Shown here in pieces: positions 20,727-27,920 of a DNA stretch of 64,000 nt. The stretch comes from Sphingobacteriaceae bacterium (lineage in GTDB: Bacteria > Bacteroidota > Bacteroidia > Sphingobacteriales > Sphingobacteriaceae), in contig JAGIAD010000011.1 in NCBI GenBank assembly GCA_017745075.1, positions 62,001-126,000 of the forward strand. The letters run 5' to 3'. Position 1 is the stretch's first letter. The number at the start of each line of letters is the position of its first letter. The translations under genes and the position numbers were made by a program. The notes beneath the pieces were generated by a model. It was not told the DNA's origin. It made no database searches and was given only the letters and a program-made list of their open reading frames with translations.

Positions 20727-22046
20727 CTATTTTCCATTTGCCTGTGCCTCAAAATAGGCAGCAGATGGTACTGGTTCTGCAATTAGCTCATCCAGTACTT
20801 TATTGAATTTTTTCTCATAATCATCGTAATACTTTCCGGTAACGGTTCCGGTATAGCCGGTGTAGATTTCGCGTACTTCGCCCTTTCTATCAATGATAAT
20901 AGTGGTTGGATAAGCAATAAACTTATTTAAGGCCGGAAGCTTATCAGCAACCAGGCGTTTATCGGCTAATCCGCCAAACAGGATATCGTATTTGATATTA
21001 TATTTATCGCGAAGCTTGCCCAGTGTGTATTTTCCGTATTCCAGGTCATCTTTCTGCTCGAAACCGATAGCAATGGCTTCTACTCCCCTTTTACTGTTCT
21101 TATTGAACCAAGGCGAAAGAAATACAGTCTGATCGGTACAGTTAGGGCACCAGGTACCTATCAGTTCTACAATAACCACTTTACCTTTATATTTATCGTC
21201 GGTTAATGAAACCGGTTTACCGTTCAGATCGGGAAAAGTAAAAGCAATCTTTTTATAACCTTCTTTTAAATAAGTTAATTTATAAGGATCAGGCAGTTCT
21301 GCCTTACTGTCTTTTACACCTGTAAATTTGAGGTTATCATAAATCCCCTGACTGATTTCTCCTGAAAGCGTACCGTCTTCATTAATGGTACCTTTGTAAA
21401 TTTTAGGACTTGGACCGCTAAATCCTGAAAGTACAAACTGGTTTCCCTGTACGGTCCCTTCAAGCTCACGGCTATCGCCGGTTACCTGCATAATTACACC
21501 TGTAAGTTTATTCCCCTCCTGTTTTAATATGGCTACCTTATTCGGAACGGCCTCTTTAGAAAACCCTTTGAACTCCCATTTACCGGTTAAATTGGCCACG
21601 GGTGCAACATCTTTTCCTGGTTCAACAAAGCGGTACGATTTGCCCTGTTCTGCAGTGAAAGGCAGGGAATTACCCTGTAAACCCGGCACTAAACTTTTAT
21701 ATTCGCCAGAGATCCTGCCATCGTTTTCTATTTTGGCCACCAAAGCCGCATCGTAGGTATTCATCTTAATGAACAGAGAATCCTGCCCTAAATATTTGAT
21801 ATGGAAATCATCCCTGCGTGTCCCGTTTAACAGGGTAAAGGTGGCATGCTCAGCATCTTTTCCTTTGAGTTCGAAATTAAATGGCACTTCGGTTTCGGCA
21901 ACCTTAAATACCCCACGCCATATGCCTTCTTTTATAAATTTCCTGGCTGTTTTTGGTTCTTCATCTACTTTATTTACCGCAAAGGCTGTGGTAGAAATGA
22001 GGGAGGCCAGAGTCAGCACCTGTATTTTAGCAAAGTAATTTTTCAT
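20727..22046 (-). CDS. Exported thioredoxin-like (TlpA/redoxin) protein, copy 2
   Basis: This 439-aa protein has a signal peptide (about residues 1-23) and a two-part beta-rich N-terminal region (about 35-260, with IWRGVFKVAETEVPFNFELKGK and LTGKWEFKG). A TlpA-like thioredoxin domain follows with active site CPNC in IGTWCPNCTDQ and the cis-Pro region YPTTIIIDRKG. It should act as a periplasmic disulfide reductant or isomerase. A closely similar paralogue lies at 22217. Thioredoxin domains of this type are about 150 aa, so the N-terminal half is an extra module, perhaps for substrate or membrane binding. Confidence 0.9.
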   Translation of the reverse strand: MKNYFAKIQVLTLASLISTTAFAVNKVDEEPKTARKFIKEGIWRGVFKVAETEVPFNFELKGKDAEHATFTLLNGTRRDDFHIKYLGQDSLFIKMNTYDAALVAKIENDGRISGEYKSLVPGLQGNSLPFTAEQGKSYRFVEPGKDVAPVANLTGKWEFKGFSKEAVPNKVAILKQEGNKLTGVIMQVTGDSRELEGTVQGNQFVLSGFSGPSPKIYKGTINEDGTLSGEISQGIYDNLKFTGVKDSKAELPDPYKLTYLKEGYKKIAFTFPDLNGKPVSLTDDKYKGKVVIVELIGTWCPNCTDQTVFLSPWFNKNSKRGVEAIAIGFEQKDDLEYGKYTLGKLRDKYNIKYDILFGGLADKRLVADKLPALNKFIAYPTTIIIDRKGEVREIYTGYTGTVTGKYYDDYEKKFNKVLDELIAEPVPSAAYFEAQANGK

Positions 22047-23527: not shown

Positions 23528-24180
23528 TATTAGTTAAACACTATTATTTTAGAGTTTTTTGGTAACAAGCAACAATGATTCGCACGGAAAACCATACAGC
23601 AGGGCTACAGGCTGTTTAAACAGCTGTTATGCTATTGATTTTTAACGGGAAACGGTATGTTTACTTGTTACCGGTTAATTTATAATCTATTGCTAGATCA
23701 GTTTGAGCACTTTTTCCTATGGAAAGTTGCTAGAAGTTCAACGAGGACTGACTCTCCCTTCTTCTGTATAAATCAACTAATTAATGGTGGTAAATTAATT
23801 AGAGCAATAACCTAAACTAGTGGTGGTGATTAGTTTCGGCTGTTCCTGATACCCCGGCAACTTATTGACTGAAATACATGACCACCATAATATTCTATCA
23901 AAATGCCCCGGGGTACCAGGATTTTAAATAAGAATATTTGAATGAAGACCTTTATCAGGTGATCTGTACCTTAGCTTATATTAGCAGCAACAAAAGTTAT
24001 ACTGACCTGAAAAATTGATCAGAGAATATGACTGAAGTTGTACGCAGAGTTTCATATTGAACGTAGATTTGCTGGTGAACTGTTTTAATTTTTTGTAAAA
24101 GTATAAACTTTGAACAATTTAAACAAGTATTCCTATAGATTTTATAGACTTTATTTTTAAATATCTGATTTACAGAAAGA
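23528..24180. other. Gene-free region upstream of the redoxin genes
   Basis: No convincing coding region was found on either strand. It includes a GCAGGGCTACAGGCTGTTTA stretch and an inverted pair, CCTGATACCCCGG (23845-23857) against CCGGGGTACCAGG (23908-23920). That pair is 12 of 13 complementary across 50 nt and GC-rich in an AT-rich background. It lies some 330 bp upstream of the copy-1 redoxin start and might be a structured leader or the end of an unrecognised RNA. Confidence 0.4.
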
Positions 24181-24308
24181 TAATTTACAATACAAATAGT
24201 TTAACAGAGGGTTTGGGTATAGGGCATGGAGTTATATACCAGGGTTGTGGAATAATTAACCGCAAAGAACGCATAGGCTGGTTTATTCCATTATCTATCT
24301 TACACTTT

Positions 24309-24503
24309 AACCACAGAGCGCACAGAGAAAGCGCGGAGCTCACGGAAATTTTCATTCCATCTTTCATTTTACATTTAACCACAGAGACCACAAAGAGAAA
24401 GCACAGAGCTTTTCATTCCATCTTCCATTATACATTTTAACCACAGAGACCACAAAGAGAAAGCACAGAGCTTTTCATTCCATCTTCCATTTTACATTTT
24501 ACA
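24309..24503. repeat. Three-unit tandem repeat (AACCACAGAG units)
   Basis: Units begin at 24309, 24377 and 24439, with periods of 68 and 62 bp. Each has AACCACAGAG, an AAAGAGAAAGCACAGAGC-like segment and TTTTCATTCCATCTTCCAT. Units 2 and 3 are nearly identical. A related TTACCACAGAGCAAACAG block lies near 26047. Adjacent head-to-tail units without unique spacers exclude a CRISPR array. Confidence 0.85.
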
Positions 24504-24888
24504 TCTTACATAAAAGCTCCTTCGCCCACACTCAGGATGACAACTCAAAACGGCGTCATCTCGACTGAAGTGCAGCGGAACGGAGAGATCTATAAAAGTA
24601 GATTTAGCCTCGCTGAGCAATCGTGGTTCTCGACTGCGTTGCACACCGCTTGAAATGACGATCCCGGAGAAGGCTATCACCCATATTAATTTTTATACAA
24701 TAAATTATCCCTCAGGATGACAACCCCAACAAAACGTGCCATCATCTCGACTGGATCGCAGTCCCGACGTTAAGTTGGGAGAGAGATCTACCCGATACAA
24801 ACTTCTATGTAACAGCACAATACACGGTTAAAAATAATAAATTTCAAAAAAAACTACTATTTCTATAGAAATTATAGTAATTATTACT
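24504..24888. repeat. Palindromic repeats upstream of tRNA-Cys
   Basis: This holds CTCCTTCGCCCACACTCAGG (24521 on) and then a full GTCATCTCGACTG palindromic unit (about 24555-24660, closing with GCTTGAAATGACG). An ATAAATTATCCCTCAGGATG segment (about 24699) and a half unit CATCATCTCGACTGGATCGC (about 24740) follow. No gene was seen. Confidence 0.7.
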
Positions 24889-24896
24889 TACCTTTG
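24889..24896 (+). promoter_or_regulatory. Bacteroidota -7 promoter element before tRNA-Cys
   Basis: TACCTTTG matches the Bacteroidota TAnnTTTG -7 consensus and is followed by C. A start site near 24903 would give a 46-nt leader before the tRNA. No clear -33 TTG is seen. The same promoter could transcribe through the tRNA into the SAM-I riboswitch. Confidence 0.6.
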
Positions 24897-24948
24897 CTTT
24901 GTCTCTTTCAAAAAGTGAATCAATAAGCTGATTGAAAAAGGAACACAT

Positions 24949-25019
24949 AGTCATGTGGCCGAGTGGCGAGGTAAAGGTCTGCAAAACCTAGTACGGCGGT
25001 TCGATTCCGTCCATGACGT
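24949..25019 (+). tRNA. tRNA-Cys (anticodon GCA)
   Basis: A cloverleaf can be drawn. The acceptor 2-7 GTCATG (24950-24955) pairs with CATGAC (25012-25017). The D arm is GCCGAGTGGCGAGGT. The anticodon loop is CTGCAAA with GCA at 24981-24983. The T arm is GGTTCGATTCC and the discriminator is T73, the base expected for tRNA-Cys. CCA is not encoded. Oddities: the terminal pair would be A1-G72 (24949/25018) and the 27-43 pair is A-A (24974/24990), both mismatched, so it may be slightly degenerate or unusual. It lies 18 nt before the SAM-I riboswitch. Confidence 0.88.
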
Positions 25020-25036
25020 CTGAAATTGTATTACAT

Positions 25037-25133
25037 ACTTATCAAGAAAAACGGAGGGAATGGCCCTTTGATGTCTTAGCAACCTGTTTTAACAAGGTGC
25101 TAATTCCATCTGCAGGTAGCAGAAAAGATGAGT
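25037..25133 (+). ncRNA. SAM-I (S-box) riboswitch
   Basis: The conserved core is present in order: P1 strand CTTATCAAGA (25038 on), GGAGGGAATGGCCC, TGATGTCTTAGCAACC, AAGGTGCTAATTCC, GCAGAAAAGATGAG, closing P1 with GATGAG (25127-25132) against CTTATC (25038-25043). This matches the SAM-I aptamer. Downstream, GGTTCC (25141-25146) can pair with GGAACC (25192-25197), and CCCTCC (25179-25184) could instead pair with GGAGGG inside the aptamer (25053-25058), a possible switching helix. No T-run follows, so a classical terminator is not evident. The regulated genes are a 63-aa ORF and a DUF4833 protein. Confidence 0.93.
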
Positions 25134-25218
25134 TTGAAAAGGTTCCTGCAACTATTTTCAGCGAATAACCAATAGCTACCCTCCTCTTTCCGGAACCGTT
25201 AAACTAAAATGTTAAGAA

Positions 25219-25410
25219 ATGCCAGTTCATTTTGATTATCCATCAATCAGAGATTTTTTTGAAGTCTATGGAAACACTTCCTGCGAAAAATTAAACGACT
25301 ATGAACATTGCAGAGCGGAATCAGACCGCCTTTATAATGAACAGTTAAAAAAAAGTGAAAAAGATATTCCCGCAGCGGATCAAGAAAAAACAGACAGCTC
25401 TTCAACCTAA
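25219..25410 (+). CDS. Small hypothetical protein under the SAM-I riboswitch
   Basis: This 63-aa ORF begins 86 bases after the aptamer (ATG 25219). The sequence is acidic and hydrophilic (PVHFDYPSIRDFFEVYGNTS at the start, then a Glu/Lys/Asp-rich tail), with two cysteines (about residues 21 and 29) and no signal or membrane segment. I do not recognise a family. Its support is positional: it is the first open frame after a riboswitch, and the next gene follows 9 bases later. Expression would be expected to fall with high S-adenosylmethionine, as for other SAM-I targets. Confidence 0.6.
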   Translation: MPVHFDYPSIRDFFEVYGNTSCEKLNDYEHCRAESDRLYNEQLKKSEKDIPAADQEKTDSSST

Positions 25411-25419
25411 AAAACTAAA

Positions 25420-26001
25420 ATGCGTTTGATACCATCTACATTTTCAATGCCGAACAAAAGCCTGCTCTTTATTGTTTTAACCTTTGCGCTTTTCGCAACA
25501 CCAACCCGGGCACAAACCAAAGATCCCTCCCCCATTAATTTTCCTACGCCTAAAAATGTAGACAACATGTTATTCTACCTGCAGCGTGATCCAAATACGA
25601 ATACGCTAATTTATGCCTTAAACCTGAAAGAAAATGGCAGTATCGATGCCAGTTCGCCTATTCAGGTATATTGGATCCGTTATGGCGAAAAAGGGCAAAA
25701 GAAAGATCTAGGTTATATCCAGCGAAAATTTGCCTACGGTATCGATACCAAAGCATTGGGAGGAGATAATTACGAATTTAGATTTGTATCGCACAAAAAA
25801 CTACCTTTTTACCTGCAGCGCGCTAATGATAAAAGTTACCATGCTTCGGTAACGATTAATAACCACACCATTAAAGTAAACCGATTGTTTGTAAGAATAC
25901 AGGGCGGCAGTTTCTGGCTCCCTAATGTAAAATACGCAGAGGTTGAGGGGATTGATGAAGCAACAGGCAAGCCAATTGTAGAAAGGGTGAGTGTGAAGTA
26001 G
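25420..26001 (+). CDS. DUF4833 exported protein
   Basis: This 193-aa protein has an N-terminal signal peptide (hydrophobic SLLFIVLTFALFATPTRAQ; cleavage after about residue 32). One domain matches DUF4833: PKNVDNMLFYLQRDPNTNTLIYALN, IQVYWIRYGEKGQKKDLGYIQ and YEFRFVSHKKLPFYLQR. A start at the second Met (25447) would also give a good signal peptide. The family is of unknown function and is predicted to be periplasmic and beta-rich. It lies 9 bases after the 63-aa ORF, in a transcript led by a SAM-I riboswitch, a connection I have not seen described. Confidence 0.87.
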   Translation: MRLIPSTFSMPNKSLLFIVLTFALFATPTRAQTKDPSPINFPTPKNVDNMLFYLQRDPNTNTLIYALNLKENGSIDASSPIQVYWIRYGEKGQKKDLGYIQRKFAYGIDTKALGGDNYEFRFVSHKKLPFYLQRANDKSYHASVTINNHTIKVNRLFVRIQGGSFWLPNVKYAEVEGIDEATGKPIVERVSVK

Positions 26002-26592
26002 TCCTTGGCTTTTTAACCGCAAAGAACGTAATGTTTCCTCTCCTTTTACCACAGAGCAAACAGAGAAAAGGCACAGAGAATACAAAGTTGAGTTATGATT
26101 TAGCTCATAACCGCTGTCATTCTGAACGCAGTGAAGAACCCGAAGGCTCTGCGAAGCAAATCTTTTTGTTAAATAGTTAGTTACAGTTAAAGATCCTTCG
26201 TTGCGCTACCATTGACAGATCCCATAGAAGAATCGTCCTTTCGACTGGAGAATGCCGATTTTTCATCGGCAGCGAAATGGAGAAATCTATAGAGAAAGAT
26301 TTAGCTTCTCTGAGCAATCGCAGTTCTCGACTTCGTTGCACTTCAGGATGACAAATACAAAACTAAAGCATCATTTCGACTGAAATGCAAAAACCTAGTG
26401 AGGTTATTGTAAAAACAGATTTCTCCACTACGGTCGAAATGACGAATTAAAATGAAGTCTTGCAAAACTCACCACTGCTGTCATTCTGAACGCAGTGAAG
26501 AACCCGAAGGCTCTGCGAAGCAAATCTTTTGTGAAATAGTACAGTTAAAAGATCCTTCGTTGCACTCAGGATGATACATACAAAGCTTGCTT
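26002..26592. repeat. Repeat-dense intergenic region
   Basis: A roughly 90-bp unit beginning GCTGTCATTCTGAACGCAGT occurs twice in direct orientation (about 26113-26205 and 26477-26570). A compound unit at about 26205-26350 (GCTACCATTGACAGATCCCA, then TTTCGACTGGAGAATGCCG and CGGCAGCGAAATGGAG) is repeated at about 55041-55195. An ACCACAGAGCAAACAG block near 26048 resembles the tandem units at 24309. No gene was seen. Confidence 0.75.
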
Positions 26593-26955: not shown

Positions 26956-27423
26956 CTAAATTTTAAATATGAGATAAGCTAAAACAGTTACAATCAGTAG
27001 AATCAATAATATTTTGATTAATTTTTTACTGAGGCTGTTTTGATTATTGCTGTAATTCCCAGAAATAATATTCTTAATATCGGTATCCCTGCTTTGTTGT
27101 ATAATATTGCCTCCAACCTTATACTGCATCAGCTTTTCTACATAATCCCTACTCGCGGCCAAACCTAAGCCTGTTGCATCTTTATAATGTTTAATGGCGT
27201 TTAACTTGTTGCCCTGACTTAAAATGGCCAATACCTCTTCGTCTAAATTTTGGGACTTGGGAGCAGGTTGCTGTGTTCCGGCTTCCAGGGCGTCTACATA
27301 ATCTTTAGCTTCTTTTAAACCGCATCCGCTATGATCTTTAACTACCTTAACGGCAGCTATTTTCTGGTTACGGTAGAGAAACAACAGTGCTTGCTGCTGT
27401 ATTTCGGGACTAACATTAATCAT
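26956..27423 (-). CDS. Tail-anchored protein with two L7/L12 C-terminal-like repeats
   Basis: This is about 155 aa from the ATG at 27423. An open frame extends further upstream but its sequence is not protein-like. Two related segments resemble the ribosomal L7/L12 C-terminal fold: QALLFLYRNQKIAAVKVVKD with GLKEAKDYVDAL, then VLAILSQGNKLNAIKHYKDA with GLAASRDYVEKL. The last 20 residues (KILLILLIVTVLAYLIFKI) form one membrane helix, so the repeats should face the cytosol from a C-terminal anchor. It has no ribosomal-protein neighbours. Function unknown. Confidence 0.78.
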   Translation of the reverse strand: MINVSPEIQQQALLFLYRNQKIAAVKVVKDHSGCGLKEAKDYVDALEAGTQQPAPKSQNLDEEVLAILSQGNKLNAIKHYKDATGLGLAASRDYVEKLMQYKVGGNIIQQSRDTDIKNIISGNYSNNQNSLSKKLIKILLILLIVTVLAYLIFKI

Positions 27424-27920
27424 AATTTTAAGCCAGCAAAACATGAACCAATTATTACAACCTGAAATGAGTCTTTTATCATGAATGCGATCACGTAAAG
27501 GTATTTTTTCTAGGAAAAATGATAAATGATCAGATAAAACTAAACAATGAATAAATAGGAACAGATAATGAGTATCAGTTTCGGGTAGTGAGCGATAGAT
27601 TTTCTGAATCACTTGATTATTCTGCCTCCCTGGGGCATCAGATCAGATATTGCCATGTATATGGGACTATGAGACCTGATACCGTCAGAATAAGCAGGAT
27701 GAGCGTAATAAAACTAAAAAATGGAACCCTTTGCCCTGAATAAATTCGCGGACACTGTATCCTGGTCGGGTAAACAGACCTTTCAGGGTAAATAAAAAGT
27801 CTTTATATACATACCAAACACCATGAACACGTCTGAACAAATATACAACATATCACCAATTGGTGATAAAAATATTTAAAATTGATTATGTAATTTTCGG
27901 GTACGATTATTTTTTATCTC
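27424..27920. other. Region upstream of the TetR gene
   Basis: No established gene. A 24-codon open frame, MEPFALNKFADTVSWSGKQT..., runs at 27721-27795 without a visible ribosome-binding site and may be chance or a gene remnant. The 18-bp palindrome at 27849-27866 is listed separately. Confidence 0.4.
27849..27866. promoter_or_regulatory. Perfect 18-bp palindrome, probable TetR operator
   Basis: TATCACCAATTGGTGATA is a perfect dyad centred 63 bp upstream of the TetR start codon. TetR dimers bind such short palindromes in their own promoters, so autoregulation is the likely reading. Confidence 0.7.

Follow-up and report, generated by a model that had tools for sequence, protein, structure and literature searches.

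Layout of the locus and its tRNA-Cys

We analysed a stretch of 64,000 nucleotides from a Sphingobacteriaceae bacterium (contig JAGIAD010000011.1, positions 62,001 to 126,000; hereafter the window), in which a tRNA-Cys gene is followed on the same strand by a SAM-I riboswitch, a small open reading frame (ORF63) and a DUF4833 gene. This tRNA-Cys(GCA) is the only tRNA that ARAGORN finds in the 64-kb window, and it belongs to a second type of tRNA-Cys, termed tRNA-Cys2 here. The genome of the window (5.8 Mb, six SAM-I sites) is denoted G000; G numbers stand for genomes and L numbers for loci. The tRNA-bearing strand carries the following features.

24851-24871, + strand: operator-like palindrome of 21 bp, 5' of the tRNA-Cys2 promoter; position weight matrix (PWM) score 16.3, the top score of the window
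24889-24896, + strand: TACCTTTG, a Bacteroidota-type -7 element by its sequence
24949-25020, + strand: tRNA-Cys(GCA) of the second type, with an A1.G72 mismatch and U73 and without encoded CCA; ARAGORN, Rfam tRNA 49.4 bits and comparison with housekeeping copies
25036-25134, + strand: SAM-I riboswitch aptamer (RF00162); 76 bits, E 4.8e-16
25219-25410, + strand: ORF63, an acidic 63-aa protein; third-position-biased change and a conserved N-terminus
25420-26001, + strand: exported DUF4833 protein of 193 aa; PF16117 E 2.9e-49

The order of the four elements, which the first-pass annotation had read from the letters, is recovered by ARAGORN, RF00162 and PF16117, and all four lie on one strand behind the TACCTTTG promoter element that it had placed ahead of the tRNA, at 24889. 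An excerpt of PMC9723704 gives TAnnTTTG as the Bacteroidota -7 consensus. The covariance-model search that had been proposed for SAM-I scores the aptamer well above the gathering score of 44.4 bits. The aptamer does follow the tRNA closely; the earlier distance of 18 nt is corrected to 15 nt, measured from the tRNA end (ARAGORN) to the aptamer start (Rfam). ORF63, described as unrecognised, indeed matches neither Pfam nor NCBIfam.

A scan for the tRNA-Cys core matches 93 of 99 Pedobacter genomes, 56 of which carry two or more copies. The housekeeping tRNA-Cys, seen at 24 loci, has a G1-C72 pair, often an encoded CCA, and nearly always the same downstream gene. The second type has A1.G72 and U73 and lacks CCA. 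We rejected the assignment of the window tRNA as the housekeeping copy, because the 24 G1-C72 copies differ from it and G000 has a separate housekeeping core on C5. The window copy retains the tRNA-Cys cloverleaf with the GCA anticodon and U73; its acceptor stem lacks the 1-72 pair of the usual seven, with A1 opposite G72.

The mismatch recurs. Of 250 genomes surveyed in the order, 47 carry the second kind (at most two mismatches anywhere), with A1.G72 in 46 of them and G1.G72 in one (G120). Among 20 Pedobacter loci collected without a constraint on the acceptor, hand-picked by their non-housekeeping core among the matches listed, A1.G72 is present in 18; the other two are a G1-C72 variant and a locus that could not be parsed. 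Acceptor pairs 3-70, 5-68 and 6-67 vary in a compensating fashion among tRNA-Cys2 genes. With a stricter core (at most two mismatches), 85 of 395 genomes of a phylum sample match; among the matches listed, A1 is found with G72 only in G000, G036 and G624, and the rest have G1 and C72. A pattern scan of named genomes yields 110 stretches, 64 from Pedobacter and 46 from others, including Mucilaginibacter, a Sphingobacterium metagenome-assembled genome and the Chitinophagaceae Sediminibacterium, Niabella, Flavisolibacter and Ferruginibacter; since this pattern fixes A1 and G72, the count says nothing on the frequency of the mismatch.

Two further observations concern these tRNAs. A third tRNA-Cys-like core with an odd 5' half lies in the genome of the window (G000:C25:566060, L266). 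At several of the loci L197-L220, a trailer (TTAGATGTTTGGTTAGATCTAAG and variants) is conserved 3' of tRNA-Cys2 and is followed by a terminator-like hairpin.

The SAM-I aptamer, a shared palindrome and sulfur genes

The order of tRNA, SAM-I and ORF63 is found in 13 distinct sequences, with a tRNA-aptamer gap of 4-25 nt. We infer read-through from the tRNA into SAM-I, because so short a gap could hardly hold another promoter. A tRNA-Cys lies close upstream of DUF4833 in nine genomes, and ORF63 is present in all nine; SAM-I is found by pattern in all of them but G158, where the covariance model detects it (69 bits). The riboswitch-ORF63-DUF4833 order is thus kept in relatives. The proposal that SAM-I controls these genes agrees with this order, but it concerns a small share of the tRNA: SAM-I (by pattern) stands behind tRNA-Cys2 at 10 of 64 Pedobacter loci and at none of the 46 others. 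The other SAM-I sites of the genome precede genes read by eye as metH and metY, a SusC-type receptor gene and an Aminotran_5 desulfurase-like gene. Two SAM-I aptamers stand in tandem, about 32 nt apart, at G194:C18:53184-53432 and G215:C1:4739574-4739822.

Confinement of the SAM-I arrangement to one Pedobacter clade is what a chance neighbourhood would give, in which an extra but ordinary tRNA-Cys would precede a SAM-I gene that has nothing to do with it, as separate units kept together by descent only. We regard this as very improbable, given the short gap in all 13 distinct sequences, the palindrome common to tRNA-Cys2 and sulfur operons, and the other ways in which tRNA-Cys2 is joined to DUF4833-type lipid genes (G188, P. 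agri) and, in some other genera, to sulfur genes.

The palindrome (consensus AnTCTACTAAnTTAGTAGAnT, 21 bp) was found in tRNA-Cys2 promoters. A PWM of width 21 was trained on 28 Pedobacter upstream regions, 56 of the 64 regions being non-redundant, and its threshold of 8.3 is the 99th percentile of 11,200 dinucleotide shuffles. It passes 25 of the 28 training regions, 27 of 28 held-out regions and 60 of the 64 Pedobacter tRNA-Cys2 upstreams overall, and none of the 24 housekeeping tRNA-Cys upstreams. Background loci (386 kb) contain 14 sites above the threshold, none scoring 13 or more. The set scored for the operator, the 20-locus acceptor set and the count of DUF4833 places given below overlap in species and are not independent of one another. 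The palindrome is conserved in nine aligned sequences (G000 and eight relatives). In the window it lies upstream of the tRNA-Cys2 promoter and ends 17 nt before the -7 element, with an overlapping match at 24860-24880. The two best sites of the window are this one and a site in front of a divergent operon, which has its own SAM-I aptamer.

24130-24150, - strand: second palindromic operator-like site, 5' of the divergent operon; PWM 13.4, second-best of the window
23981-24055, - strand: leader ORF MKLCVQLQSYSLINFSGQYNFCCC with a CCC run, by translation
23677-23774, - strand: second, divergent SAM-I aptamer (RF00162); 53.6 bits
22217-23527, - strand: exported thioredoxin-like protein (AhpC-TSA/redoxin) behind the divergent SAM-I; PF00578 E 9.9e-16
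20727-22046, - strand: paralogous thioredoxin-like protein, the next gene; PF00578 E 4.7e-15

The first-pass annotation had not noted the divergent SAM-I, the CCC leader, the two palindromes or the second-type identity of the tRNA. The palindrome also marks sulfur-linked promoters. It is present in 13 of 15 scored SAM-I promoters, among them those of the SusC type and of the desulfurase-like gene; metH and metY fail. A common palindrome of the kind expected for a CymR-like regulon is found above the threshold in 19 of 23 sulfur-linked promoters, the two of the window included, and the four misses are metH, metY, sulfite reductase and one of three DUF4833 promoters. Base-level reading of the PhyH promoters of L272 and L130 places the palindrome shortly 3' of a TACGTTTG element, from which we infer a repressor position.

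A gene for an Rrf2 regulator directly precedes sulfite reductase in G000, and CymR is the best of the named Rrf2 subfamilies for its product (87.2 bits, against 66 for RirA and 65 for IscR), so that a CymR-like Rrf2 protein is perhaps the repressor at the palindrome. In some other genera, Pfam assigns sulfur functions to neighbours of tRNA-Cys2: a siroheme-synthase/TauE fusion (L332), genes for TauE and a sulfite reductase (L287), a desulfurase-like Aminotran_5 gene together with an Rrf2 regulator (L304) and a sulfatase (L279). The redoxin family of the window is found at L289, and relatives of the window's thioredoxin-like protein adjoin tRNA-Cys2 in some Chitinophagaceae. Reference sulfur proteins are encoded within 1.5 kb of tRNA-Cys2 at 12 of 46 non-Pedobacter loci and at none of the 27 and 24 housekeeping controls; the references were drawn from the counted loci, and three of the 12 matches are the source loci themselves. 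Together with the palindrome, these neighbourhoods make tRNA-Cys2 look like a second tRNA-Cys that is itself sulfur-regulated, not an ordinary neighbour.

According to an excerpt of PMC5015018, the Rrf2 family includes both Fe-S/iron regulators and cysteine regulators, and the palindrome could belong to an IscR- or SufR-like member, in which case tRNA-Cys2 would answer Fe-S or redox stress. The position of tRNA-Cys2 just behind suf-like genes (named by eye) in G206 and G278 and the redoxin and peroxiredoxin-like neighbours would suit such a regulator. We nevertheless consider it unlikely: the palindrome coincides with SAM-I and with cysteine-run leaders, which should read S-adenosylmethionine (SAM) and Cys-tRNA, and the Rrf2 protein of G000, encoded beside sulfite reductase, scores higher for CymR than for RirA or IscR.

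ORF63, DUF4833 and the lipid operon

ORF63 is most likely a real protein, because it varies chiefly at the third codon position: over 43 codons of 12 distinct sequences, pairwise differences number 228 at position 1, 88 at position 2 and 733 at position 3. A leader peptide was rejected on the same bias and on the lack of conserved cysteine. Among 301 sampled genomes of the family, ten have strong ORF63 matches, all Pedobacter and all with the tRNA and SAM-I in front; weak matches occur in G179 and in G164, where an ORF63-like frame follows CDP-alcohol transferase and GtrA genes.

The DUF4833 protein of the window matches PF16117 with 167 bits (cut-off 23.1). Its structure model is mostly β-strand (mean pLDDT 73) and leads to no fold assignment: Foldseek gives an E value of 0.046 at best, and the top VIA-align Z score is 3.2 (5.6 Å over 89 residues). 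A profile search against solved structures returns a single match with E 1. At 74 of 106 other places, DUF4833 adjoins or is fused to genes for CDP-alcohol phosphatidyltransferase, fatty-acid hydroxylase, GtrA or PhyH, and at eight it has ORF63; the remaining 24 lack neighbours of either kind by the references used, some of them with only 1.5 kb of flank. Judged by its neighbourhoods, DUF4833 is therefore first a lipid-operon family. We rejected a sulfur function for the family as a whole, as 98 of the 106 places lack ORF63. The link between DUF4833 and sulfur that had been predicted is supported for the subclade of the window, which has leaders with four cysteines (Cys4) and the shared operator, and not for the family at large.

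DUF4833 closes an operon of PhyH, CDP-alcohol transferase and GtrA genes in G188, G242, G094 and G269, with proteins 62-65% identical to each other's reference. The PhyH operon was found in all 12 genomes searched, that of the window included, and in 11 of the 12 both DUF4833 places lie elsewhere (the second place of G215 is not listed). In the SAM-I clade, DUF4833 stands behind tRNA-Cys2, SAM-I and ORF63. In G188 and P. agri, the palindrome and tRNA-Cys2 lead a single run of SDR, PhyH, CDP-alcohol transferase, GtrA and DUF4833 genes (on one strand in G188). In P. chinensis, ORF63 comes after tRNA-Cys2 with no SAM-I, and a single gene separates them from the operon that runs from PhyH to DUF4833. 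Where DUF4833 has left the lipid operon, which is so in two clades, another sulfur device accompanies it, either tRNA-Cys2 with SAM-I or its own Cys4 leader. The subclade DUF4833 and ORF63 thus look like parts of one lipid-linked set, in which sulfur control would be kept while the device changes.

The leaders are short frames with runs of cysteine codons. The PhyH operon leader ends in MRMCCCCA, and both the palindrome and the Cys4 leader are present in 12 of 12 genomes. DUF4833 stands behind its own MCCCCK leader in G194, G209 and G215, with a PWM score above the threshold in two of the three. The leader MKLCVQLQSYSLINFSGQYNFCCC of the window lies between the palindrome of the divergent operon and the divergent SAM-I, and related frames ending in CCCR occur in G145, G173, G230, G266 and others. 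On the contig of the window (L386, G000:C2:13672-17073), a frame ending in MICCCCITH lies between the Rrf2 gene and sulfite reductase; a terminator-like hairpin with a T-run follows this candidate leader (by eye). Another frame, ending in ICCDMRAVTCMCCCIQ, lies behind the metY-like SAM-I. Cysteine-run frames also arise by chance, with 24 in 464 kb of DUF4833 loci, the real ones included.

Lipid reference genes lie within 1.5 kb of tRNA-Cys2 at 17 of the 64 Pedobacter loci and at 10 of the 46 outside Pedobacter; in the two control sets, they do so at none of 27 loci and at one of 24. These counts, the PhyH and SDR genes beside tRNA-Cys2 also in G624 and Niabella, and an A1.G72 end kept in most unconstrained loci while other acceptor pairs change in compensation are what would be expected if tRNA-Cys2 were not mainly translational, its unusual end setting it apart to donate or sense cysteine, for instance in the service of one of the lipid or envelope enzymes of the SDR, PhyH and fatty-acid hydroxylase set. 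We find this rather unlikely. The GCA anticodon and U73 are retained, the control match at L192 (G120) indicates that copies without A1.G72 can have lipid neighbours too, and the cysteine leaders should switch the lipid operon on when Cys-tRNA is scarce, which is the wrong sense for a consumer of Cys-tRNA. L192 itself (G120:C1:18473), the sole control match, is an additional tRNA-Cys of housekeeping-like type, with SDR, PhyH and fatty-acid-hydroxylase-like genes next to it.

Further features of the window lie beside the locus. Repeated intergenic elements, ACCACAGAG... and CATTCTGAACGCAGTGAAGAA..., flank it at 24300-24660 and 26040-26580 (by eye). A protein with a ribosomal L7/L12 C-terminal domain is encoded at 26956-27612 (- strand); its C-terminus is hydrophobic by eye.

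A proposed sulfur-starvation circuit and its known counterparts

In the best explanation of these observations, which we consider likely, the locus is a two-sided control point for sulfur starvation, part of a regulon that includes its own tRNA-Cys. A CymR-like Rrf2 repressor would bind the palindrome and free the promoter when cysteine is scarce. RNA polymerase would then make one transcript from the tRNA-Cys2 promoter through the downstream genes, from which RNase P and 3' processing would release tRNA-Cys2, and the SAM-I aptamer would permit expression of ORF63 and DUF4833 solely at low SAM. The divergent operon would read three sulfur signals in series: the operator, the Cys-tRNA leader and SAM-I. 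The most likely role of the lipid genes would be a change of the envelope by which sulfur is spared or recovered, and tRNA-Cys2 would keep cysteine decoding, that of the leaders included, workable in the shortage. Because of the sense in which the leaders should act, we prefer such sulfur-sparing remodelling, with the tRNA induced alongside, to a lipid whose synthesis uses up Cys-tRNA.

A number of results weigh against this circuit. Four of the 64 Pedobacter tRNA-Cys2 genes lack the palindrome, and outside Pedobacter it passes in only 6 of 45 upstreams. The G000 Rrf2 protein stays below the CymR equivalog cut-off (87.2 of 195 bits), and the sulfite reductase promoter scores 6.3, under the threshold. 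No reference sulfur gene lies within 1.5 kb of 34 of the 46 non-Pedobacter tRNA-Cys2 loci, and only 2 of the 64 Pedobacter loci have one. The SAM-I core is altered in two of the 13 relatives (GAAACC in L224; GCAATC/GGCGC in L383), and GTAGGG replaces GGAGGG in six of 13. No terminator or conserved expression platform was recognised behind the tRNA-linked SAM-I, by an insensitive test: a hairpin with a U-run is found in none of six tRNA-SAM-I loci, and the same test caught only 4 of 16 SusC-type and none of four metH sites. The consensus fold of the tRNA-SAM-I sequences clearly displays the aptamer alone. A search of G088 did not find the divergent CCC leader, and ten more distant stand-alone DUF4833 upstreams have no cysteine leader by eye.

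The role of tRNA-Cys2 may be that of a starvation isoacceptor for decoding, of a shifter of the Cys-leader readout or of a non-ribosomal cysteine carrier. A more specific proposal, which we put forward tentatively and hold to be possible but doubtful, is that some Bacteroidota reserve for sulfur starvation a tRNA-Cys whose 1.72 pair is broken and which is co-induced with the regulon; it would close the circuit by changing the very tRNA that the attenuators read, or would carry cysteine outside the ribosome for the co-regulated lipid enzymes.

Genes for tRNAs are usually treated as housekeeping. Judged from sequence, one tRNA species here appears to belong to a nutrient regulon and to be controlled with it, heading a riboswitch-bearing mRNA, and it is kept in several genera with its acceptor-end mismatch. 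Sulfur or cysteine shortage becomes a likely physiological signal for DUF4833 and for the unnamed lipid operon of SDR, PhyH, CDP-alcohol transferase and GtrA, which makes their functions testable, and multi-level sulfur control by operator, cysteine leader and SAM-I is suggested in these bacteria. Our searches of open-licence papers found none on DUF4833 or on a SAM riboswitch with tRNA-Cys in Bacteroidetes, and no description of the present arrangement or of a second tRNA-Cys that looks sulfur-regulated.

Known systems resemble some of these elements. The bacterial initiator tRNA has an unpaired 1.72, which it shares with tRNA-Cys2; in contrast, tRNA-Cys2 is of the elongator type, has a GCA anticodon and lies within the putative sulfur regulon. 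The aptamer is a full-length SAM-I (RF00162), which stands here 15 nt behind a tRNA gene and ahead of an unknown small protein and a lipid-family DUF. The CymR (Rrf2) cysteine regulon of Firmicutes is resembled in the Rrf2 genes beside sulfur genes (sulfite reductase in G000; the desulfurase-like gene at L304) and in the common palindrome at sulfur-linked promoters; the candidate regulator here differs in lying under the NCBIfam cut-off, and the set includes a tRNA-Cys. The polycysteine attenuators of mycobacteria, which reportedly use cysteine-run leader peptides, likewise have a short frame ending in cysteine codons just upstream of a sulfur-related operon, whereas the leaders here belong to Bacteroidota, precede lipid, DUF4833, redoxin and sulfite reductase genes, and are combined with SAM-I and an operator. 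Finally, the inositol-lipid cluster BT_1522-BT_1526 of Bacteroides, as described in an excerpt of PMC9246714, places a CDP-alcohol phosphatidyltransferase beside a GtrA-motif protein, as does the DUF4833-bearing PhyH operon; that excerpt mentions neither DUF4833 nor PhyH nor sulfur control.

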